DNA of 50,786 nt, taken from Myxococcaceae bacterium (lineage in GTDB: Bacteria; Myxococcota; Myxococcia; Myxococcales; Myxococcaceae). The DNA is taken from NCBI GenBank assembly GCA_019686135.1, contig JADGHL010000024.1, positions 1 through 50,786 of the forward strand, given 5' to 3'. Of this stretch, positions 15,854 to 48,598 are shown piece by piece (positions within the stretch are counted from its first letter, which is position 1; every line of letters starts with the position of its first letter). The notes below the pieces were generated by a model that was not told the origin of the DNA, did no database searches, and saw nothing but the letters and a program-made list of their open reading frames with translations. A program made the translations under genes and the position numbers.

Positions 15854-16837
15854 TTACCAGCGGACCAAAGCCGACCCCCACGCCATCCCGGCGCCGATCG
15901 CCATCATCGCGATGACGTCGCCCTCCTTGAGCCGGCCGGCGCGGTTCGCCTCGTCCAGCGTCATCGGCAGCGACGCCGAAGACGTGTTTCCGTACCTGTG
16001 GATGTTGAGCCAGACCTTGTCCCGGGACAGGTCCAGTCGCTCGAGCACCGCGTCGATGATCCGCACGTTGGCCTGGTGCGCGATCACATGGTCCACTTGT
16101 GCGGGCGCAAGCTGGTTGGCGTCGAGCGCCTCCTTCACCGCGTCGGTGAGGGCGCGGACGGCGAACTTGAAGACCTCCCTGCCGTTCATCGACACCTTGT
16201 TGAGCTTCTTCGCGAGGACCTCGGGCGTAATGGGCGTATGCGGCCCGCCCGCCTGGATGAGCAGGATCGGCCACTGCGAGCCGTCGGTGTGCAGGTGCGT
16301 GGAGAGGATGCCCCGCTCACCGTCCGAGGACGGCCCCAGCACCATCGCGCCGGCGGCGTCGCCGAACAGCACGCAGGTGTTGCGGTCCTCCCAGTTGAGG
16401 ATCGACGTGAGCAGCTCCACGCCGATCACCAGCACCCGCTTCGCGTTGCCGTTGCGGACGTACTGGTCGGCGATCGACATCCCATACAGCGAGCCCGCGC
16501 AGGCGGCGCTCACGTCGAACGCAAACGCCTTCTTCGCCCCGAGCTTGTGCTGCACGAACGCCGCGCACGAGGGCATCGGCATGTCCGGCGTCACCGTGCC
16601 GACGATGATCGCGTCCAGATCCTCGGGGCGGGTCCGCGCCATCTCCAGCGCCTGGACCGCCGCCTTCACCGCCATGTCCGAGGTCAGCTCGCCCGGCGCC
16701 GCCATCCGGCGCTCCTTGATGCCGGTGCGCTCGGAGATCCACTGGTCGCTCGTCTCGACGATCTTCTCGAGATCCGCGTTGGTGACCACCTTCTCGGGGA
16801 CGTAGGAACCGGTGCCGATGATCTGAGTTCGGGGCAT
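15854..16837 (-). CDS. fabH: beta-ketoacyl-ACP synthase III
   Basis: 327 residues. Starts fatty acid synthesis from acyl-CoA and malonyl-ACP. Catalytic triad C113 (SAACAGSLYG), H254 (VIAHQANVRI) and N284 (YGNTSSASLP) complete. The ATG at 16837 has GGAGG 8 nt upstream; the ATG 15 nt further up overlaps that ribosome-binding site and is rejected. It is a useful internal reference for the divergent KAS III homolog at 43908. Follows rpmF directly, without plsX between them. Confidence 0.97.
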   Translation of the reverse strand: MPRTQIIGTGSYVPEKVVTNADLEKIVETSDQWISERTGIKERRMAAPGELTSDMAVKAAVQALEMARTRPEDLDAIIVGTVTPDMPMPSCAAFVQHKLGAKKAFAFDVSAACAGSLYGMSIADQYVRNGNAKRVLVIGVELLTSILNWEDRNTCVLFGDAAGAMVLGPSSDGERGILSTHLHTDGSQWPILLIQAGGPHTPITPEVLAKKLNKVSMNGREVFKFAVRALTDAVKEALDANQLAPAQVDHVIAHQANVRIIDAVLERLDLSRDKVWLNIHRYGNTSSASLPMTLDEANRAGRLKEGDVIAMMAIGAGMAWGSALVRW

Positions 16838-16904
16838 GATCGAGGCCTCCAAAAGCCGAGGAGGCGCTCCTTAATCTCAAAGCTGCTCGGCTGTCCTTAA
16901 CATT

Positions 16905-32423: not shown

Positions 32424-35400
32424 CTACAGGGACAACCCGACCGACACCGAGAACGCGACGCCGGGCCGGTATTCGAGGACCGTCAGCCCGCCGGCCTGCA
32501 GCCGGACGGACGAGTTGAGGAGGTTGGAGGCGGTCAGCTTGAGCTGCGCGGCGCCGCCTAGCTTCTGGGTGCAGGCGAGATCGAGCCGGTGAAACGGCTC
32601 CTCGTAGACGTCGGGGCGCGCGTCGAAGCCCACATCGGCGATGCGCGGGCCGTAGACGTTGTAGAGCACCGCCACCTCGGTGCCGGACTGCGTCCGGTCG
32701 TACCCGAGGTTCACGTTGACCACGTACGGCGACTGCCCCTGGAGCGGGCGAAGCAGGGTGGTGGAGGCGCCGCCCTGATCGCCGAGATCCACCTGCGAGT
32801 GGATCAGCGTGAGGTTCGCGCCGAGGCGGAAGTCGGAGAGCGCGGCGACCAGCCGGCCCAGGCCGGCGCGCGCCTCGAGCTCCGCACCGTAGACGTCGGC
32901 GCTGGGGGCGTTGCGGTAGCTGACGTCGCCGGTGCCGACGGTGACGATCACCCGTTCGATCGGCTCGTTGAACCGCTTGTAGAAGACGCTCGCCGCGAGC
33001 ACCTTGCTCTCGCCGGGGAACCACTCCACCCGCGCGTCGGCGTTGTGGATCCGCGTCTCGTGCAGATCCGGGTTGCCCTGGACGTTGCGACGGCGGACGA
33101 AATCGAAGAACTGGAAGGGGGCGATCTCGCGGAAGGTCGGCCGCGCCAGCGTGTAGCTGTAACCCGCGCGGAAGTTGATCGCGTCGGCGAGGGTCCAGGT
33201 GAGGTTGATCGACGGCAGCACGTCGCCATGGGCCAGCCGCGCCTCCCGGCCTGGCGCGTACGAGCGCGAGAAGTCGCTCTTCGCGAGCAGGTTGAGGTCG
33301 GAGTACTCGTAGCGGAGGCCGGCGAGGACCCGCAGCGGCTCCAGCGGCTTCCAGTCCGCGGACAAGTACCCAGCGGCGATCTCGAGCCCGGCGGTGTAGG
33401 CGTCCTCCGGGAGGGTGACCTCGCGCGGGGTGAAGACGCTGCCGACGTTCTGCGGCCCGAGCAGCTCGTTGGGACGATCGCCGAGGCGCTCGTTGTAGCC
33501 GTCTTCCAGATCCCAGTGGAACCGGCGCGCGTTGAAGCTGCGCGCGGAGCTCTGGAACATCCCGCCCACCTTCAGGCGCAGGCTGGGCATCGGGAGCGTG
33601 AGGTTCGCGGCGCCGCCCGCCGACTGCTCGGCGAGGTCGGCGTAGAAGCGGTCGCCGTTCCCCGGCTGATCCTTGAAGAAGTAGTCCGCGTCCTGCGGCG
33701 AGTAGTAGGTGACGTCGCGCGTGTCCGGCTGCGCGCGGTCGACGCGCGAGTAGTTCGCCTGCCAGTCCACCTCGGCGTCCCCGAGGATCCCCAGCCGGTG
33801 GAAGCCGCGGAGCTGGTTGAAGGTCAGCGCCCGGTTCACGAACAACAGGCGGGTGCCCTGGAAGAACGGATCGGTCGACCCGTTCTGGAGCTGACCCCGG
33901 GTGCTGACCGTCTGCGCCTCGGAGGAGCGCGTGTAGAGGCTGAACAGCGTGAGCTCGTGATCGCTGCTGAACTGGTAGCCGGCGTTGAGCAGCCCTCCGA
34001 ACGCAGCGGTCTGCTTGCCGACGTCGGCGGTGGAGGTGGAGTCGTACTCCGGCCCGTCGATGCCCATGGTCACCCGGCCGGACTTCTGGTGCAGGAGGGA
34101 TTCGGCGCGCGAGTACTGGACGGAGGCGAGGTAGCCGAAGCGCTGGTTCCCGAAGCGGAGCGTGTCGCCGACCGAGACGCCGAGCGTCCCGGTCGGCAGC
34201 GAGCGGCTGCTGGTGGCCTCCCACTCGCCGGGGAAGGACTTGCCGATCTCCACCACGTCGGAGTTGTGCAGCCCTCCGTACCCGGACTCCAGCGGGCCAT
34301 CATCCGGCACGCTTGAAGGGAGCGCGCGCGACGGATCGGAGAACCCGAGCGCATCGAGCGCTCCGCCGGGCTGGGACGGACGCATCTGGAAGGTGGTCGT
34401 GCTGTTGCCACTGAGCGAGAGCCGCGGCTTGAGCTCGAAGCGTGAGGGATAGGAGTGGGTCTCGATCTGCAGCGCGCCGCCGCCGAAGGTGCCGGGCAGA
34501 TCGGACGAGTACGACTTCACCACGTTGAGGTTGGCGAGCAGCGGCGTGGGGAACATGTCGAGCGGGACGGAGGGCTCGTCGGGCTCGGGGCTGGGCAGCG
34601 CGGCGCCGTTGAGCAGCGTCACCGCGTAGCGGCCGCCGAGCCCGCGCAGGAGCACGAACTTGTTGTCGACGATCGTGGCGCTGACCACCCGCTTCACCGC
34701 GTCGGAGGCAGTGGAGTCCGGGGTGCGGGCGATCTCCTGCGAGGAGATTGCGTCGGAGACCGTGGCCGACTTGCGGCGCTCCTGCAGCAGCGCGCTCTCG
34801 GAGCGGTGGTCCGCGCGCACTTCGACCACGACCTCCTGGACCGCACCGGTGTCCGCCTCGAGGGAGACGTCCAGCCGGTACGCCTTGCCCTGCTCCACCG
34901 TCACGCCAAAGAGGCGGCGGCCCTGGTACAGCTCGTAGAAGACGTGGAGGTCCCAAGTCCCCGGTGCGAGCTGCAACTGGTAGTAGCCGTCGACGTCCGT
35001 GCGCGCCGTCCGCGAAGGCCCGGTGGTCACCTTCACCGTGGCCTCGATCAGAGGCTCCTTCGTAGCCGCGTCGATGATCCGGCCCCAGACGCCGGTGAAC
35101 CCGGGAGGAAGGCTGGGCGGCCCTCCCACCTTCGCGGCCTCCGCGCTTTCGGCTGCGGTGGCGTCGTCACCGAACGCGGACTGATCGCCGAACACGGACT
35201 GATCGCCGAGCTGCGGACCGGCGGCGGGCGGTCGCGTCGCCCCCGAGTCCGTCGCTTCGAGCGCGGCCTCGTCGGACAGCGCAGCTTCATCCGAGAACAC
35301 GTCCTGATCGGAGAGCGCCGCCTCACCCGAGGGCGCACCGCGAAAAGCAGGCGCGTTCATCCCGCTCGCGCCCGAAGCCGCAGGCGCGGCAGCCTGGGCC

Positions 35401-36155
35401 GGGCCCGGCGCGCCCGGGTCCGTTGCGCTCGACGAGGCGGCAGACCGCGCCGCCCCCGCCTCCGTTGCGCTCGACGGCGGCGGGGCCGCGGATCGCGCCG
35501 CGCCTCCTGCGCTCGCCTCCGCTGCGCTCGACGAGGCGGCAGACCGCGCCGGGCCCGCCTCCGTTGCGCTCGAGGTCGATGAGGCTGCGGATTCCACAGC
35601 GCCCGGCGCGCCCGCCTTCGTAGCGCTCGACGCCGGTGAGGCGGCGGATCGCGCCGTACCTGGTGCGCCCGCCTCCGTTGCGCTCGACGAGGCGGCAGAC
35701 CGCGCCGCCCCCGCCTCCGTTGCGCTCGAGGCCGATGAGGCTGCGGATCGCGCCGGGCCTGGTTCGCCCGCCTCCGTTGCGCTCGACGAGGCGGCAGACC
35801 GCGCCGCCCCCGCCTCCGTTGCGCTCGAGGTCGATGAGGCTGCGGATCCCACCGCGCCCGGCGCGCCCGCCTTCGTAGCGCTCGACGCCGGCAAGGCGGC
35901 AGACCGCGCCGGGCCCGGCGCGCTCACGTTTGTTGCGGTCGGTGCGGGCGTGGTCGCGGGAGCGGCCGGCTTCAGTGCCGGGCTCATTGGCGCGGTGCCG
36001 CCGTCCACCGCCGAGGACACGACCGACGATGTTCCTGCGCACGTCGCCGCCGGGACGGAAAGCACCGGGCCCCCGCCGTCGGTCGAGGTCTGCGCCAGCG
36101 CCACCGGGGCGAGGAGGAGCAGCAGCGTGTTGAAGCAAAGGGGAAGTGAAGACAC
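32424..36155 (-). CDS. TonB-dependent outer-membrane receptor with a long Ala/Ser-rich N-terminal repeat
   Basis: 1243 residues. Signal peptide 1-21. Residues about 60-265 are low complexity (Ala, Ser, Thr, Gly, Pro), built from SSATEAGAARSAAS-type units arranged as two 85-residue blocks. A short acidic repeat follows (SDQDVFSDEAALSDEAAL, then GDQSVFGDQSAFGDD, about 282-331). A carboxypeptidase-regulatory-like beta domain spans about 353-435, a plug about 445-570 (LRGLGGRYAVTLLNG, GTFGGGALQIET), then the beta-barrel to a C-terminal VSVGLSL. Energised by the adjacent TonB-ExbBD. No strong Pho-box was seen directly upstream. The substrate is unknown; phosphate esters or chelated phosphate are suggested by the neighbourhood. 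Confidence 0.92.
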   Translation of the reverse strand: MSSLPLCFNTLLLLLAPVALAQTSTDGGGPVLSVPAATCAGTSSVVSSAVDGGTAPMSPALKPAAPATTPAPTATNVSAPGPARSAALPASSATKAGAPGAVGSAASSTSSATEAGAARSAASSSATEAGEPGPARSAASSASSATEAGAARSAASSSATEAGAPGTARSAASPASSATKAGAPGAVESAASSTSSATEAGPARSAASSSAAEASAGGAARSAAPPPSSATEAGAARSAASSSATDPGAPGPAQAAAPAASGASGMNAPAFRGAPSGEAALSDQDVFSDEAALSDEAALEATDSGATRPPAAGPQLGDQSVFGDQSAFGDDATAAESAEAAKVGGPPSLPPGFTGVWGRIIDAATKEPLIEATVKVTTGPSRTARTDVDGYYQLQLAPGTWDLHVFYELYQGRRLFGVTVEQGKAYRLDVSLEADTGAVQEVVVEVRADHRSESALLQERRKSATVSDAISSQEIARTPDSTASDAVKRVVSATIVDNKFVLLRGLGGRYAVTLLNGAALPSPEPDEPSVPLDMFPTPLLANLNVVKSYSSDLPGTFGGGALQIETHSYPSRFELKPRLSLSGNSTTTFQMRPSQPGGALDALGFSDPSRALPSSVPDDGPLESGYGGLHNSDVVEIGKSFPGEWEATSSRSLPTGTLGVSVGDTLRFGNQRFGYLASVQYSRAESLLHQKSGRVTMGIDGPEYDSTSTADVGKQTAAFGGLLNAGYQFSSDHELTLFSLYTRSSEAQTVSTRGQLQNGSTDPFFQGTRLLFVNRALTFNQLRGFHRLGILGDAEVDWQANYSRVDRAQPDTRDVTYYSPQDADYFFKDQPGNGDRFYADLAEQSAGGAANLTLPMPSLRLKVGGMFQSSARSFNARRFHWDLEDGYNERLGDRPNELLGPQNVGSVFTPREVTLPEDAYTAGLEIAAGYLSADWKPLEPLRVLAGLRYEYSDLNLLAKSDFSRSYAPGREARLAHGDVLPSINLTWTLADAINFRAGYSYTLARPTFREIAPFQFFDFVRRRNVQGNPDLHETRIHNADARVEWFPGESKVLAASVFYKRFNEPIERVIVTVGTGDVSYRNAPSADVYGAELEARAGLGRLVAALSDFRLGANLTLIHSQVDLGDQGGASTTLLRPLQGQSPYVVNVNLGYDRTQSGTEVAVLYNVYGPRIADVGFDARPDVYEEPFHRLDLACTQKLGGAAQLKLTASNLLNSSVRLQAGGLTVLEYRPGVAFSVSVGLSL
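35405..35912 (-). repeat. coding tandem repeat, two ~255-bp blocks of shorter units
   Basis: Within the receptor gene, residues 82-166 and 167-250 align as two 85-residue copies (PARSAALPASSATKAGAPG versus TARSAASPASSATKAGAPG). Each contains several 14-23-residue sub-repeats with near-identical DNA (for example CTCCGTTGCGCTCGACGAGG on the plus strand recurs several times). Confidence 0.85.
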
Positions 36156-42183: not shown

Positions 42184-43896
42184 ATGGTTGCCCCCAAAGT
42201 TACCGAGTTGTTCCCCAGCTATTCGGCCCGGACCCAGCCCAGGATTCGCGTCGCCAACCTCCTCGTTCAGACCCTGGGAGAACTCGGCGTCGACACCTTT
42301 TATGGGATCCCCGGTGGTGCGATCTCGTCGGTGTACGACGCGCTGATCGACTTCCCCAACGCGCGGGTCATCAACGCCCGGCATGAGAGCGGCGCGGTGT
42401 TCATGGCGATGGGCCACGCGCGCTCGGGCGGATCGCTTCCCTGCGTGCTGATGACCAGCGGCCCCGGGATCACTAACGCGCTGACCGGCTTGGCGGCGGC
42501 GCACGCGGACGGGGTCCCGCTCATCGCGATCGGCGGCGAGGTGCCGAAGAAGAACTTCGGGCGCGGCGCGCTCCAGGAAGGGAGCCGGTACCACCTGGAC
42601 ATCCTCGGGATGGCGCGCAGCGTGACCAAGTACGCCACCGAGCTGACCAACCCGCGCGCGGTGGCCACCACCATCCGCCGCGCCGTGGCCACCGCCCTCT
42701 CCGGCAAGCAGGGGCCGGTGCTCCTCAGCCTGCCTCTCGACGTGGGCAACGAGGAGGTCATCCCCACGAGGTCCCCCACCCAGGTCTCGACGTCGTTCGG
42801 GATCGATCACGACGTGGTGGCGGCGGCCGCCGAGGCGCTGATGAGCTCCCGGCGCGCGGTGATCCTCGCCGGCAGCGGCGCGCGCAACCCCGAGGCGGTG
42901 CGGTTGATCGGCGTGCTCGCGGCGTCGCTGCAGATCCCCGTGATCACCACGCCCAAGGCCAAGGGGCTGTTCCCCGAGACCGATCCGCTCTCCCTGGGTG
43001 TGTTCGGCGTGGGTGGGCACCCCTCCGCGTTGGAGTACCTGGAGGGCGGGATCGACACCATCCTGTGCGTGGGCTGCGGGCTGGGCGAGACCGGGACGAA
43101 CAGCTGGAGCCCGCTTCTGCAGGCCTCCAACGCGTTCATCCAGATCGACATCGACGCCACGCAGATCGGCAAGAACTACCACGTGGACTACGGGATCGTC
43201 GGGCCGGCGCAGCTGGTGTTGCGCGAGCTGGCCGCGCGGATCTCCCGTCGCCCGACCGCGGCGCCGGCCACCGGGATCCGCTACTACGAGCCGGAGAAGA
43301 TGGAGCAGGACACCACGCCCATCGAACCGGCGCGGGCGATCAAGCTCCTTCAGCTGAAGATGCCGGAGTCGACCATCTTCACCAGCGACGTCGGCGAACA
43401 CCTGATCTACGCGCTGCACTACCTGCGCATCGAGAACCCCGGGTCGTTCATCGCCAACACCGGCCTGGGATCGATGGGGTCGGGCATCGGCGCGGCGATC
43501 GGCGCCAAGGTGGCCAACCCGAAGCGGCCGGTCGTCTCCATCTGCGGCGACTACGGCTTCCAGATGTTCGGGATGGAGATCGCCTCCTGCGTGGAGAACC
43601 GCATCGGGGTCGTGTTCGCGATCTTCAACGACGCCCGGATGCGGATGGTGGAGGGCGGGATGAGGACCATCTTCGGGCGCACCCCGAAGGTGGACTCGCA
43701 GCGGGTGGACTTCTCCCTGCTCGCGCGCAGCGTGGGCGCCAACGGCTACCTGATCCGGTCCGCCGAGGATCTGGACCGGGTCCCGCGCCAGCACCTGGTC
43801 GGGGACATCCCCTGCGTCCTCGACTTCGAGATCAACCCCGACGCCTCCTTCCCGGTGAACGGCCGCGTCACGCAGATCAAGAACTTCTCCAACTAG
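42184..43896 (+). CDS. thiamine-diphosphate enzyme of the acetolactate synthase family
   Basis: 570 residues from the ATG at 42184 (AGAGGTCGAGG upstream). Three-domain ThDP fold. N-terminal Pyr domain with FYGIPGG and catalytic E68 in NARHESGAV. Central domain at about 205-350. C-terminal PP domain with the metal/ThDP motif G455-D456 ... N482 (ICGDYGF ... IFND, where the usual GDG reads GDY). The family decarboxylates a 2-oxoacid and transfers the two-carbon (or larger) unit. No ilvN/ilvH regulatory subunit or ilvC is adjacent, so branched-chain amino acid synthesis is unlikely. Its downstream partner is a KAS III-like enzyme 11 nt away, which suggests acyloin, diketone or modified ketone formation (inference). 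Confidence 0.9.
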   Translation: MVAPKVTELFPSYSARTQPRIRVANLLVQTLGELGVDTFYGIPGGAISSVYDALIDFPNARVINARHESGAVFMAMGHARSGGSLPCVLMTSGPGITNALTGLAAAHADGVPLIAIGGEVPKKNFGRGALQEGSRYHLDILGMARSVTKYATELTNPRAVATTIRRAVATALSGKQGPVLLSLPLDVGNEEVIPTRSPTQVSTSFGIDHDVVAAAAEALMSSRRAVILAGSGARNPEAVRLIGVLAASLQIPVITTPKAKGLFPETDPLSLGVFGVGGHPSALEYLEGGIDTILCVGCGLGETGTNSWSPLLQASNAFIQIDIDATQIGKNYHVDYGIVGPAQLVLRELAARISRRPTAAPATGIRYYEPEKMEQDTTPIEPARAIKLLQLKMPESTIFTSDVGEHLIYALHYLRIENPGSFIANTGLGSMGSGIGAAIGAKVANPKRPVVSICGDYGFQMFGMEIASCVENRIGVVFAIFNDARMRMVEGGMRTIFGRTPKVDSQRVDFSLLARSVGANGYLIRSAEDLDRVPRQHLVGDIPCVLDFEINPDASFPVNGRVTQIKNFSN

Positions 43897-43907
43897 TCGA
43901 GGCACCC

Positions 43908-44984
43908 ATGAACGTCGGCATCCACGGTGTCGGGATCTATCTCCCGGAACAGGTTCGCAAGAATGACTGGTGGCCGGAATCGGTCGTGAAGCGGTGGCTC
44001 GAGGAGCGCAAGGCGCGCGATCTGGTGCGCGCCTCGCGCGATCCCGAAGAGACCCGCTCGGAGGGGGCGCGGCTGCTCGCCGAGGCGATGGCCCGCTTCT
44101 CCGACGATCCGTTCAAGGGCGCCCGCGAGCGGCGGATCATGCCGGAGGGGATGAAGACCTCCGACATGGAGGTGGCCGCGGCCCAGGACGCGCTGGCCCG
44201 CGCCGGCGCCCGGCCGGAGGAGATCGATCTCCTCCTGGTGCACAGCCAGCTCCCCGACTTCCTCGAGGTCTCCAACGCGCCGCTCATCCACCGAAAGCTC
44301 GGGCTGCCCGCGCGGTGCTTTTCCAGCGGGAACGAGAGCGCCTGCGCGAGCTTTCTGCACCAGCTCTCGCTGGCCGACGCGATGATCCGCTCCGGCCGCG
44401 CGAAGAAGGCGTTGCTCATCCAGTCCAGCGGGTTTGCGCACCTGTGCCGGATGGAGGATCCGCACTCCGCCTGGTTCGGGGACGGCGCCACCGCGGTGGT
44501 GGTGGGCGAGGTCGGACCGGGGCGCGGGCTGCTCGGGCAGGCCCACTACACCGACGGGTCGATGCACGAGGCCCTGGTCGGCGGCTACCCGGAGTCCACC
44601 TGGTGGGCCGACCACCCGGTGGTGATGTACACGAAGGACCGCGACGCGGCCCGGCGCATGCTCCTGTCGGTGGCGGATCTCGGCAAGGAGGTCATCCACG
44701 AAGCGCTGCAGCAGGCGGGGCTCAGCCCCGACGACGTGGGCTTCTTCGCCGGCCACCAGGCGACGTGCTGGATGCGGGAGGTCACCCAGAAGGTGATCGG
44801 CCTGAAATCGGCGCGGTCCTTCGACTCGTTCCCCTGGACGGGGAGCCTCGGCTCCTGCAACACCCCGTTCATGCTGGGGATGGGCGAGCGGGAGGGCCTG
44901 CTCCAGGCCGGCGATGTCACGGCGATCTACGCGGGAGGAAGCGGTATCGTCTGGTCCGGAATGATCCTCCGGTGGGGCCAGTGA
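43908..44984 (+). CDS. divergent KAS III-like condensing enzyme
   Basis: 358 residues from the ATG at 43908 (GAGG upstream). Thiolase fold of the FabH family with C146 in GNESACASF and H283 in FAGHQATCW. At the place of the catalytic Asn (GNTS in FabH) it reads TGSLGSCNTP, with Ser at the expected Asn position. It is longer than the housekeeping FabH at 15854 and very different in sequence; an insertion around residues 30-80 (KARDLVRASRDPEETRSEG) is specific. Substrate not predictable by eye: acyl-CoA or acyl-ACP priming, or acyl transfer rather than decarboxylative condensation. Its last codon overlaps the kinase start (GTGA), so synthesis and sensing genes are translationally linked. Confidence 0.88.
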   Translation: MNVGIHGVGIYLPEQVRKNDWWPESVVKRWLEERKARDLVRASRDPEETRSEGARLLAEAMARFSDDPFKGARERRIMPEGMKTSDMEVAAAQDALARAGARPEEIDLLLVHSQLPDFLEVSNAPLIHRKLGLPARCFSSGNESACASFLHQLSLADAMIRSGRAKKALLIQSSGFAHLCRMEDPHSAWFGDGATAVVVGEVGPGRGLLGQAHYTDGSMHEALVGGYPESTWWADHPVVMYTKDRDAARRMLLSVADLGKEVIHEALQQAGLSPDDVGFFAGHQATCWMREVTQKVIGLKSARSFDSFPWTGSLGSCNTPFMLGMGEREGLLQAGDVTAIYAGGSGIVWSGMILRWGQ

Positions 44985-47900
44985 GCGCCGAAGTCTCCTG
45001 CAGCGTCCTCGACATCTTCTTTCAACGGCTCAAGCGCGAGGGACGCCCGCCCGAGATCCTCCTCGAGGGGCTGAACGTCTCGTACGCCGACGTCCGCAAG
45101 AAGAACGCGCGCATCGACTGGGACACGTTCTGCCGGTTCATGGAGAACGTGACGGCGCTCTGGCCCACCGAAGAGGAGTTGGCCGACATCGGCGAGTCGT
45201 TCTTCCAGGTGCCGGCGATGAAGCCGTTCTCGCTGGTGGCCCGGATGCTGTTCGACGCGCCGGCGTTCTACCAGTACGTCTTCGAGCAGCAGACCGGGGT
45301 GGGCGACCAGTCGTTCACCAACATGATCCACACCATTGAGCAGCTCGGCACGCGCCAGCTCCGGATGGACCTCAAGATCCGCCCCGGCTTCGTCCCGTGC
45401 GACGCGTTCTACGTGGTCAGCCTGGGGACGTTCCGCGGGATGCCGCGCGCGCTCGGGCTGGGGCCGTCGGAAGTGAAGATGACCCGCATCGATGGTGGGG
45501 CACGCTACGAGGTCACCGTGCCCGAGGGCGGCGGCTGGCTCCGGCGCGTGTGGCGGGCCATCTCCATACCATTCACCGCCCCGGCCATGGCCGCCGAGCT
45601 CAAGGAGTCGATGGGCGAGCTCCAGAAGCGGTTCCTGGAGCTCTCCGAGGCGCGCTCCGCCCTGGCCGTGCAGACCGAACGCCTGAAGATCGTAAACCGG
45701 CTGGGCCGCGAGCTCGCCGCCCACACCGACCTGCTCGGGCTGGCCGAGGCGCTGGGAAGGGTCTTCGGCGAAGAGCTCTCGGCGATCGGGATCGTCGTCC
45801 TCGTGTCGGGCGAGGCGCCGGGCGAGTTCGACGAGCTGGTGCGCAGCGGGCCCTGCACCGGGTCACCGACCCGGGAGATCGACCTCGTCTCGGGCGAAGA
45901 ACAGGTCGGGCGGATGCGGGTGTTCGCCGAAGGGAAGGACGCGAGCGACCCGTTGACCCTGGTGGACGACCTCGTCCCGTGGATCTCGATCGCGCTGGGG
46001 AATGCGCGGTCGTTCACCCTTTTGCGCGAGTACCGGGACCAGCTCTCGGTGAAGGTGGAGAAGCGCACCCGCGAGCTCAACGCGGCGATGCAGAAGCTCG
46101 AGGAGAGCCTCGAACAGCAGCGCGAGGCGACCCGGCTCAAGACCGAATTCTTCGACAACGTCAGCCACGAGCTCCGCACGCCGCTGACACTCATCCTGCT
46201 CACGCTGGAGTCGCTCCAGCAGAAAGAGGACACGCTGGACGCGGTCACCCGCCAGCACCTCGACCGGATGGAGCGCAGCGCGTCCCGGCTCTTACGGCTC
46301 ATCAACGAGCTGCTCGATCTCGCCAAGATCGGCGCTGGGAAGATGCGGCTCCGGTACGAGGCGATCGACGTCCCGGAGCTGGTCTCCGCGGTGCTCATCC
46401 CCTTCCGGGTGCTGGCGGACGAGAAGAAGCTGGGCATGCGGATCGACGTCCAGACCGAGGTCGAACGCGTGCACGCCGATCCGGAGAAGCTGGACCTCGT
46501 CTTCCAGAACCTGGTGTCGAACGCGCTCAAGTTCACCCAGGAGGGGGAGGTCGTCGTCGCCATCCGGCAGGACGCGTTCTACGTCTACGTGGAGGTGCAG
46601 GACACCGGCACCGGCATCCCGCCCCAGGATCTCGCCATCATCTTCGATCGCTTCGCGCAGGCGGACTCGCAGGGCACCCGCCGCATCGGCGGCACCGGGA
46701 TCGGGCTCGCACTGGTGAAGGAGACCGTCGAGCTGCACGGCGGCAACATCCGCGTGGAGTCCGAACCGGGGAAAGGGTCGAAGTTCATCGTCGCGCTGCC
46801 CCGCGGAACCCAGCACATCCGCGAGGACCTCCGCGAGCGCCGGACCACGGAGGTGCCGGTGCACCGCGACCGCCGGTCGGACGATCACGTTCTTCTGCGC
46901 CAGCGGCGCCGCCTCAGCCATCAGCGCGCCGAGGAGCTCGCCGCGGTGGCCCGCGAGAACGCAGAAGGAACCGCCGCGCCCAGCCCCAACCGCCCGCTGA
47001 TCCTCGTGGTGGAGGACGAGCCCGAGCTACGGTCCTTCATCGTCTCCACCCTGCGCGAGCTCTACGAGGTGATCGAGGCGGAGAACGGTGAGCGCGGGCT
47101 GGCCCAGGCGCGCGCGCACGGGCCGGTGCTGATCGTCTCGGACGTGATGATGCCGCGGATGTCCGGGCTGCAGATGCTGGCCGCGCTCAGATCGGATCCG
47201 CGGACGGTGGACATTCCGGTGATCCTTCTGACGGCGCGCCAGGACGTGGAGGCGCGGGTCCACGGCCTCAGCGAGGGCGCCAACGACTATCTGGGCAAGC
47301 CGTTCTCGCCGCGCGAGCTCATCGCCCGCATCGACGCCCAGCTCCGGCTCCGCGACGCCGCCGCGCGCGTGGCCCAGACCGAGCGCCTCGCGGTGGCGAG
47401 CCTTCTCACCAGCGGGTTCGCCCACGAGGTCCGCAACCCGCTCAACGGGCTGATGAACGCGCTGGCGCCGCTCCGCGAGAGCCTTAGGCCCGGCGGCGAC
47501 CCCGCCGTCGCCGCGGCGATGCTGGAGATCGTGGAGGAATCCGGGGAGCGGATCCGCCACCTCGCCGAGTCCCTGCTGCTGATGGTCCGGACCGGCGGGA
47601 ACCGCCAGACGATCGACCTGCCGGACTCGGTGGCCGCGGCGATCCGCGCGCTCAAGTGGAAGACGCCGGCCACGGTGAGCATCACCCAGACGGGCCGCGT
47701 GGACGCGCAGGTGGTGGGCGACCCGGCCGCGCTGACGCAGGTGTGGATCAACCTGCTCGACAACGCGCTCCGCGCTCTGGACGAGAGCGGGACGATCGAG
47801 GTCCGCCTCTCCCAGACGAAGACGGACGTCGTCGTCGAGGTGATCGACTCGGGCGCGGGGATAAGGCCGGAGGATCTGAAGCGGCTGTTCGAGCCCTTCT

Positions 47901-48115
47901 TCTCCACGCGCTCCGCTGGGGAGGGATCCGGGCTGGGGCTCGCTCTGTGCCGGCGGATCGTGGTGAGCCACGGCGGGCAGATCACCATCGACAGCACGGT
48001 GGGCCAGGGCACGCGGGTGACCGTGCGGCTCCCCATCACGCCGCCACAGCTCGTGACCGCGCCCGTGGCGACCGAGGAGAGCCAGCCTCCTGTGCTGGCG
48101 CGCACGGGCACATAA
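44981..48115 (+). CDS. hybrid sensor kinase with two kinase modules around a receiver
   Basis: 1044 residues from a GTG at 44981. Residues 1-195: an unrecognised soluble domain (VLDIFFQRLKREGRPPEILLEG ... ARYEVTVPEGG), presumably the sensor. 200-240: coiled coil. About 235-345: GAF-like domain. 350-385: second coiled coil (EKRTRELNAAMQKLEE). 388-455: HisKA with H396 in FFDNVSHELRTP. 495-607: HATPase_c. 672-790: receiver with EDE (678-680) and D721. 805-870: second HisKA-like segment with H815 in GFAHEVRNPLNG. 910-1018: second HATPase_c (NLLDNALRAL, DSGAGI, GSGLGLALCRR). No membrane helices, so it senses something in the cytoplasm or freely diffusing. A plausible relay is H396 to D721, then H815 to the receiver at 48206. 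Confidence 0.92.
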   Translation: MSAEVSCSVLDIFFQRLKREGRPPEILLEGLNVSYADVRKKNARIDWDTFCRFMENVTALWPTEEELADIGESFFQVPAMKPFSLVARMLFDAPAFYQYVFEQQTGVGDQSFTNMIHTIEQLGTRQLRMDLKIRPGFVPCDAFYVVSLGTFRGMPRALGLGPSEVKMTRIDGGARYEVTVPEGGGWLRRVWRAISIPFTAPAMAAELKESMGELQKRFLELSEARSALAVQTERLKIVNRLGRELAAHTDLLGLAEALGRVFGEELSAIGIVVLVSGEAPGEFDELVRSGPCTGSPTREIDLVSGEEQVGRMRVFAEGKDASDPLTLVDDLVPWISIALGNARSFTLLREYRDQLSVKVEKRTRELNAAMQKLEESLEQQREATRLKTEFFDNVSHELRTPLTLILLTLESLQQKEDTLDAVTRQHLDRMERSASRLLRLINELLDLAKIGAGKMRLRYEAIDVPELVSAVLIPFRVLADEKKLGMRIDVQTEVERVHADPEKLDLVFQNLVSNALKFTQEGEVVVAIRQDAFYVYVEVQDTGTGIPPQDLAIIFDRFAQADSQGTRRIGGTGIGLALVKETVELHGGNIRVESEPGKGSKFIVALPRGTQHIREDLRERRTTEVPVHRDRRSDDHVLLRQRRRLSHQRAEELAAVARENAEGTAAPSPNRPLILVVEDEPELRSFIVSTLRELYEVIEAENGERGLAQARAHGPVLIVSDVMMPRMSGLQMLAALRSDPRTVDIPVILLTARQDVEARVHGLSEGANDYLGKPFSPRELIARIDAQLRLRDAAARVAQTERLAVASLLTSGFAHEVRNPLNGLMNALAPLRESLRPGGDPAVAAAMLEIVEESGERIRHLAESLLLMVRTGGNRQTIDLPDSVAAAIRALKWKTPATVSITQTGRVDAQVVGDPAALTQVWINLLDNALRALDESGTIEVRLSQTKTDVVVEVIDSGAGIRPEDLKRLFEPFFSTRSAGEGSGLGLALCRRIVVSHGGQITIDSTVGQGTRVTVRLPITPPQLVTAPVATEESQPPVLARTGT

Positions 48116-48205
48116 TCCGCCCGGGGGACGGCCGGGCGGCCCGGCGCAGCCCCGCCCCGCCCGAAGGCAACCCGACGCGCGATCCGCTCCCGGAACTTTC
48201 ACCGC

Positions 48206-48598
48206 GTGCCAATGGTTCGGCAATCGGTGATGCCGAAGCCCAACCCCGCCTCACACCGCATCCTCATCGTCGACGACGATCCCGACTGGCGGAGCGCCCT
48301 GCGCCTGATGCTGGACGACCTCGGCTACGACAGCGTGGAGGCGGCCAGCGGCGAGGAGGCGCTCCTGCTCCTGGAGCAGGAACCGTTCCGGATCGTCCTT
48401 CTGGACATGAACATGCCGGGGCTGAGCGGATACGACGTGATCGCGCGGCTGCCGGATCCGTCCACGCGGGTGGTGCTGCTGACCGCGTCCTCGGCCCAGG
48501 AGGTGGGCGACACGCTCAACAAGACGGCGGCCTACTACCTGCCGAAGGACGCCGGCGAAGAGGCGCTCGGGTTGATCCTGGAGTCCCTGCAGGCGTGA
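48206..48598 (+). CDS. stand-alone receiver domain response regulator
   Basis: 130 residues, CheY-like, with no output domain. Acidic pocket DDD (23-25), phosphoacceptor D67 in VLLDMNMPGLSG, then the Thr in LLTAS and Lys in YLPKDAGEE. The GTG at 48206 has GGAA 11 nt upstream; ATG 48212 or 48230 are alternatives. It lies 90 nt after the hybrid kinase and is its likely partner. Such receivers act by protein contact or pass phosphate onward. Confidence 0.9.
   Translation: MPMVRQSVMPKPNPASHRILIVDDDPDWRSALRLMLDDLGYDSVEAASGEEALLLLEQEPFRIVLLDMNMPGLSGYDVIARLPDPSTRVVLLTASSAQEVGDTLNKTAAYYLPKDAGEEALGLILESLQA

Follow-up and report, generated by a model that had tools for sequence, protein, structure and literature searches.

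Positions 42184 to 48598 of a 50,786-nucleotide stretch of DNA from a Myxococcaceae bacterium (assembly GCA_019686135.1, contig JADGHL010000024.1; the whole stretch is referred to here as the window) carry a gene module that, on balance, is probably a synthesis-and-sensing system, in which two enzymes act as an acyloin or ketone synthase and a soluble kinase as the matching receptor. As judged by sequence comparison, a soluble hybrid kinase is genetically linked to two carbon-carbon-bond enzymes that are not housekeeping enzymes, and the N-terminal sensor domain of the kinase (NT) co-varies with the second enzyme, a ketoacyl synthase III-like protein (KAS). We infer that a signal is produced, leaves the cells and is bound by NT. 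The first enzyme depends on thiamine diphosphate (ThDP). The features of the locus are as follows (aa, amino acids).

42184-43896, plus strand: ThDP-dependent carboligase, 570 aa, putative first enzyme of the synthase pair (Pfam TPP_enzyme_N/M/C)
43908-44984, plus strand: KAS III-like enzyme, 358 aa, putative second enzyme of the pair (Pfam ACP_syn_III, ACP_syn_III_C)
44981-48115, plus strand: soluble hybrid kinase, 1044 aa, GTG start (Pfam HisKA-HATPase-Response_reg-HisKA-HATPase)
44981-45595, plus strand: NT sensor domain, kinase residues 1-205, probable remote relative of PF12625 Arabinose_bd
45611-46105, plus strand: kinase linker region, residues 211-375, no Pfam match, GAF-like by position only
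47000-47332, plus strand: internal receiver of the kinase, residues 674-784, between the two kinase cores (Pfam Response_reg)
48206-48598, plus strand: single-domain receiver, 130 aa (Pfam Response_reg)

The four genes are separated by 11, -4 and 90 nucleotides (nt), the KAS and kinase genes overlapping by 4 nt. Remeasurement of positions, strand and gaps agreed with the four-gene layout given in a preliminary description of this DNA.

A phylum-wide set of 195 genomes was searched with profiles of NT, KAS and the ThDP enzyme, and the loci were gene mapped; the phylum is taken to be Myxococcota on account of relatives such as Polyangium. KAS directly followed by an NT-kinase, with the ThDP gene alongside, was found in 12 of the 195 (the window's genome, G005, G038, G022, G052, G019, G194, G193, G192, G189, G077 and G182; in G193 the ThDP gene is split across contig ends). 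These genomes span at least seven families, and identity to the window across the modules is 35 to 57% for KAS and 20 to 38% for NT. KAS lies immediately before the NT-kinase in 12/12 loci holding both; ten of the gaps were measured and range from -4 to 28 nt. This order persists even in G022, whose remaining module genes are rearranged. Counted from the first enzyme, a family KAS is at hand for 20 of the 21 ThDP-family members (19 side by side and one inferred across contig ends), and an NT-kinase lies alongside 13. A rough estimate, taking some 40 NT genes spread over roughly 1.4 gigabases, puts the chance of an NT gene within 5 kb at about 3e-4 per locus. The ThDP-KAS-NT-kinase adjacency is a conserved module, far beyond chance. 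Chance adjacency was dropped as an explanation, since the linkage is conserved in the gene maps of relatives. The preliminary description would have lost ground if the enzymes rarely adjoined the kinase elsewhere; the linkage is kept over deep divergence, despite rearranged gene order. A wider scan of genome contigs with the ThDP alignment recovered one real relative, an enzyme pair without an adjacent kinase in Polyangium (L060); the remaining matches were IlvB-like, apart from L061 and L062.

Distance correlations were computed over 11 complete modules. NT distances correlated with KAS distances (r 0.70, Mantel p 0.0005) more strongly than with those of the kinase's own body (r 0.48) or of the ThDP enzyme (0.14 to 0.20). 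Given the kinase body, the partial correlation of NT with KAS was 0.62 to 0.68, and it was at least 0.46 in every leave-one-out analysis.

The window module appears to have a mixed ancestry. Its ThDP enzyme is G019-like (67% identity to G019 versus 45% to G005), as is its kinase from residue ~211 onward, linker included. Its KAS is G005-like (57% to G005 versus 35% to G019), and so is its NT (38% versus 29%). Trees of the ThDP enzyme and of the kinase body join the window with G019 at a support of 100/100. This grouping is rejected by the KAS tree (approximately unbiased [AU] test, p 0.0023) and by NT in a 20-sequence tree (AU p 4e-5), in a G005-G019 comparison that was picked after the identities had been seen and whose p-values are descriptive. 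The exchange tract ends near the NT boundary, at kinase residue ~205-240. The simplest account of these patterns is that KAS and NT of the window were exchanged as one cassette, with a history unlike that of the ThDP enzyme and the kinase body.

The ThDP enzyme retains the catalytic Glu (RHE) and the GD...N ThDP/Mg motif. TIGR00118 is its best NCBIfam model, on which it scores 362.3 bits, below the cutoff of 538.35. It lacks GMVxQWQ, which we take to be the substrate motif of acetolactate synthase (IlvB), and has RMVEGGMRTIFG at that position; of seven IlvB-like sequences used for comparison, five have GM[VI]RQWQ and two GMVRQLQ. There is no ilvN within the window operon. Ketol-acid reductoisomerase (KARI; PF01450) was not found in the window's genome (G000, 97% complete) and was found in 14/14 control genomes; likewise, G000 holds no enzyme above the TIGR00118 cutoff, and each of the 14 controls has one. 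The absence of both makes a role of the ThDP enzyme in branched-chain synthesis unlikely. The score, the missing motif and the missing KARI led us to drop an ordinary acetolactate synthase as a candidate; that identity would have told against the preliminary description, and this check, made by sequence, did not bear it out. On the same two absences, G000 is a probable branched-chain amino acid auxotroph. The nearest solved structures to the ThDP enzyme are BbmA (PDB 8x3x) and CsmA (PDB 8x3z), and a GKGALQE-type stretch is common to BbmA and the window enzyme. No report on BbmA or on acyloin- or ThDP-based signaling was found in the open-access literature, and a 2026 review of quorum sensing (PMC13220807) mentions neither thiamine, acyloins nor acetolactate.

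In the KAS of the window, Cys146, His283 and Asn318 occupy the positions of the FabH triad, which is not universal across the KAS family. The protein falls below the cutoffs of the FabH subfamilies (144.6 bits versus 249; 136.3 versus 292). The family forms a subfamily of its own; FabH matches are confined to residues 68-357 of its model and leave an N-terminal stretch of ~65 residues uncovered. Going by model scores and motifs, neither the ThDP enzyme nor the KAS III-like enzyme is a housekeeping enzyme. An ordinary-looking FabH-type gene, with just 31% identity to the module KAS, is present at 15854-16852 of the window, near fabG-like, acyl-carrier-protein-like and fabF-like genes.

The kinase is arranged as NT, linker, HisKA/HATPase, receiver and HisKA/HATPase, and the same architecture is found in 12 relatives. 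It contains no transmembrane-like segment, its highest 19-residue Kyte-Doolittle mean being 1.58. The NT, comprising the first ~205 residues, matches no Pfam family above threshold; it scores 12.7 bits on PF12625 (Arabinose_bd), below the gathering cutoff of 27.6, and the best NT member has an E value of 0.0061. Alignment of the NT profile with eight PF12625 domains of AraC regulators using hhalign gave a probability of 83.8 and an E value of 7.9e-6 over 113 columns, and the control alignment gave 0.3. In 398 Pseudomonadota genomes the profile found weak matches only, and all six that were tested are PF12625-AraC regulators. This analysis suggested remote kinship between NT and the Arabinose_bd ligand-binding domain of AraC. 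Within the phylum, NT also is fused to a LuxR-type GerE helix-turn-helix (HTH) domain (in G154, G095 and G056) and to other kinases. Together, the likeness to the AraC domain and these fusions indicate that NT most likely senses a small molecule in the cytoplasm. The NT profile had no match among PDB sequences, and a single-sequence AlphaFold model of NT (pLDDT 51) was too poor for a fold search. One further locus (L183, G043:C10:49863-52156) holds three consecutive NT-domain matches in adjoining open frames. The preliminary description had proposed that this part of the kinase senses the product; that idea gains support from the AraC-domain homology and from the co-evolution of KAS and NT, and the signal, its export and its binding remain inferred.

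In related modules, the ThDP gene has an HTH_17-receiver gene as its neighbor (in G022 this gene separates it from the kinase gene), and a receiver-histidine-kinase gene follows the NT-kinase in nine. The window module has neither locally; one clear homologue of each is encoded elsewhere in G000, the HTH_17-receiver on C168 (219.6 bits) and the receiver-kinase on C77 (407.7 bits). The single-domain receiver of the window has no counterpart in related modules, most of which have the receiver-histidine-kinase protein at this place, and its earlier inclusion as a module member was not borne out. In three genomes, more distantly related ThDP-KAS pairs adjoin chemosensory genes, which comprise a methyl-accepting chemotaxis protein (MCP) gene and varying CheA/CheW/CheR/CheB genes.

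L025, G046:C26: chemosensory locus in the order CheA-CheW-MCP-HEAT-CheR-CheB-SnoaL-ThDP-VOC-KAS
L026, G037:C122: distant ThDP-KAS pair with MCP and CheB
L028, G012:C35: distant ThDP-KAS pair with MCP and CheR

By gene order, ThDP-KAS pairs have two kinds of sensory partner, the NT-kinase and chemosensory genes. G000 itself holds a second, distant ThDP-KAS pair (L027, G000:C19:19023-22239) near a contig end, with a receiver just upstream.

A mechanism can be proposed in which the ThDP enzyme would couple a 2-oxo acid with either a second 2-oxo acid or an aldehyde, giving an acyloin or an alpha-hydroxy-beta-keto acid. The KAS III-like enzyme would take an acyl group onto Cys146 and either condense it decarboxylatively with the ThDP product, as CqsB3/CqsB1 do in carbazole synthesis, or acylate that product. 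The outcome would be a small ketone, probably membrane permeant, which on accumulation would bind NT inside the cell and shift the balance of kinase and phosphatase activities. Phosphate might then pass from the internal receiver to the second kinase core and on to the receiver-kinase and HTH_17-receiver proteins, these putative targets being neighbors in relatives and encoded elsewhere in the genome for G000. We propose that the KAS step sets the identity of the ligand, so that KAS and NT stay matched.

Several observations weigh against this proposal. Many kinases and regulators carry NT with no ThDP or KAS enzymes nearby, and the enzyme pair is found without an adjacent kinase in G076, G072 and G185 (the last near a contig edge). 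The ThDP family adjoins an NT-kinase in 13 genomes, and the 13th, G043 (L169, G043:C6), has the ThDP enzyme, NT-kinase and receiver-kinase and no KAS; its ThDP enzyme and NT are sisters of those in G052, which carries KAS. In G077 (L166) and G189 (L165), Ser replaces the active-site Cys of KAS in otherwise intact modules. The Ser-for-Cys enzymes and the module of G043 suggest that the second step is open to change or loss. In an 11-sequence tree, NT does not reject the grouping of the window with G019 (descriptive AU p 0.134). Finally, the agreement of the KAS and NT trees could stem from nothing more than an exchange tract, because the two stand next to each other on the DNA.

This last point can be extended to the whole KAS-NT correlation, which would then reflect physical linkage, as one recombination tract, and no matching of ligand and receptor. 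Such an explanation is compatible with every other reading; the overlap of the KAS and kinase genes fits it, as neighboring DNA tracts are exchanged together. We nevertheless consider it unlikely, if not strongly so. The switch occurs near the NT boundary and leaves out the ThDP gene, which is just as close to KAS, and both points argue for functional matching of KAS and NT; moreover, the correlation persists when both the window and G005 are left out (partial r 0.46 to 0.52).

Alternatively, the kinase might answer some other cue and switch on the enzyme pair, whose product would be an antibiotic, pigment or lipid and not the ligand. Carbazoles are made by pairs of ThDP and KAS III enzymes (PMC7466098), xenocyloin biosynthesis involves a ketosynthase with acylating activity (PMC4578411), the nearest solved relatives of the ThDP enzyme are BbmA and CsmA, and some ThDP-KAS pairs have no kinase (L185, L187). 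On the other hand, the genes conserved alongside the enzyme pair in the mapped relatives are signaling genes, with none for tailoring, cyclase, resistance or export functions among them, and NT tracks KAS more closely than it tracks the rest of its own protein. This alternative is doubtful in our view, and no support was found for the "defense metabolite" suggested in the preliminary description.

We think it quite improbable that NT serves intracellular feedback, sensing either precursors (2-oxo acids, acyl-coenzyme A) or the product within the same cell, with no cell-cell signaling. The kinase is soluble, which means that any ligand acts in the cytoplasm, and no exporter gene is linked to the module. 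Soluble receptors for membrane-permeant signals are, however, well known, e.g., those of the LuxR type, and the cassette-like co-inheritance of KAS and NT suits the matching of product and receptor better than the sensing of common precursors.

An ordinary acetolactate synthase and a fatty acid FabH beside a kinase by chance is a highly improbable reading: TIGR00118 is the best model of the ThDP enzyme and no other G000 enzyme exceeds its cutoff, whereas the shortfall in score (362 versus 538 bits), the lack of GMVxQWQ, KARI and an ilvN in the operon, the FabH-like genes elsewhere in the genome, the low KAS scores (136 to 145 bits versus cutoffs of 249 to 292) and the conserved linkage all stand against it.

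Elsewhere in the window, tandem DNA repeats with periods of 57, 99, 156 and 255 are found at 35409-35911, within a minus-strand gene (32424-36155). They encode Ala/Ser-rich sequence that makes up the N-terminal portion of a probable outer-membrane receptor, whose gene adjoins TonB-like and ExbB/ExbD-like genes.

A synthesis-and-sensing system of this kind would be of interest in myxobacteria, for which, to our knowledge, no self-made signal of the acyl-homoserine-lactone type is established, despite their elaborate social behavior. As a conserved pairing of synthase and receptor, in which the receptor is modular and the two enzymes are tractable, the module is a testable candidate for such a myxobacterial signal. 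The exchange of the KAS-sensor cassette may offer a natural experiment on how the specificities of signal and receptor remain matched, and a ligand class can be proposed for a sensor domain found in kinases and LuxR-type regulators. We tentatively suggest, at somewhat less than even confidence, that the module represents an undescribed class of cell-cell signaling in Myxococcota, with an acyloin-derived ketone from a two-enzyme ThDP/KAS III synthase, its detection in the cytoplasm through an AraC-type ligand-binding domain on hybrid kinases, switches of specificity by swaps of KAS-sensor cassettes and related enzyme pairs that feed Che arrays.

The module resembles CqsA/CqsS and LqsA/LqsS in that the synthase is encoded next to its own sensor kinase and the product is probably of the ketone type. 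The synthase and receptor specificities of CqsA/CqsS have been proposed to co-evolve (PMC3285556, PMC3376566). CqsA and LqsA are single pyridoxal phosphate (PLP) enzymes, whereas the window has unrelated ThDP and KAS III enzymes and no PLP synthase by Pfam. Furthermore, CqsS and LqsS sense via transmembrane helices, in contrast to the soluble N-terminal domain of the window kinase, which has no hydrophobic segment. The PhcBSRQ system of Ralstonia comprises a signal synthase, a sensor kinase and the receiver-plus-kinase protein PhcR (PMC10653808); similarly, most relatives of the module encode a putative synthase, a kinase and a PhcR-like protein within a single operon. PhcB, however, is a methyltransferase that makes a fatty acid methyl ester, and the window operon encodes no methyltransferase. 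A linked receiver-kinase of the PhcR type is present in nine related modules and absent beside the window module, G000 having one homologue elsewhere (on C77).

Known receptors for photopyrones and dialkylresorcinols are LuxR solos, not hybrid kinases. The ketosynthases PpyS and DarB make these cell-cell signals in Photorhabdus (PMC4578411), and the likeness lies in a KAS-type signal enzyme and in the presence of NT on LuxR-type HTH proteins as well; the difference is that PpyS and DarB work without a ThDP partner. A ThDP enzyme and a KAS III-like enzyme do act in sequence in carbazole-type biosynthesis, as CqsB3 plus CqsB1 and NzsH plus NzsJ (PMC7466098). The carbazole clusters add cyclase and tailoring genes, with no sensor kinase described in that review, whereas the partners of the window module are signaling genes. 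As for their cyclase (CqsB2/NzsI), the window operon has no third enzyme gene and the mapped relatives share none, as far as gene maps go, no homologue search with CqsB2 itself having been made. From these comparisons, the module appears to belong to none of CqsA/CqsS, LqsA/LqsS and PhcBSRQ, and would resemble them in the way it works.

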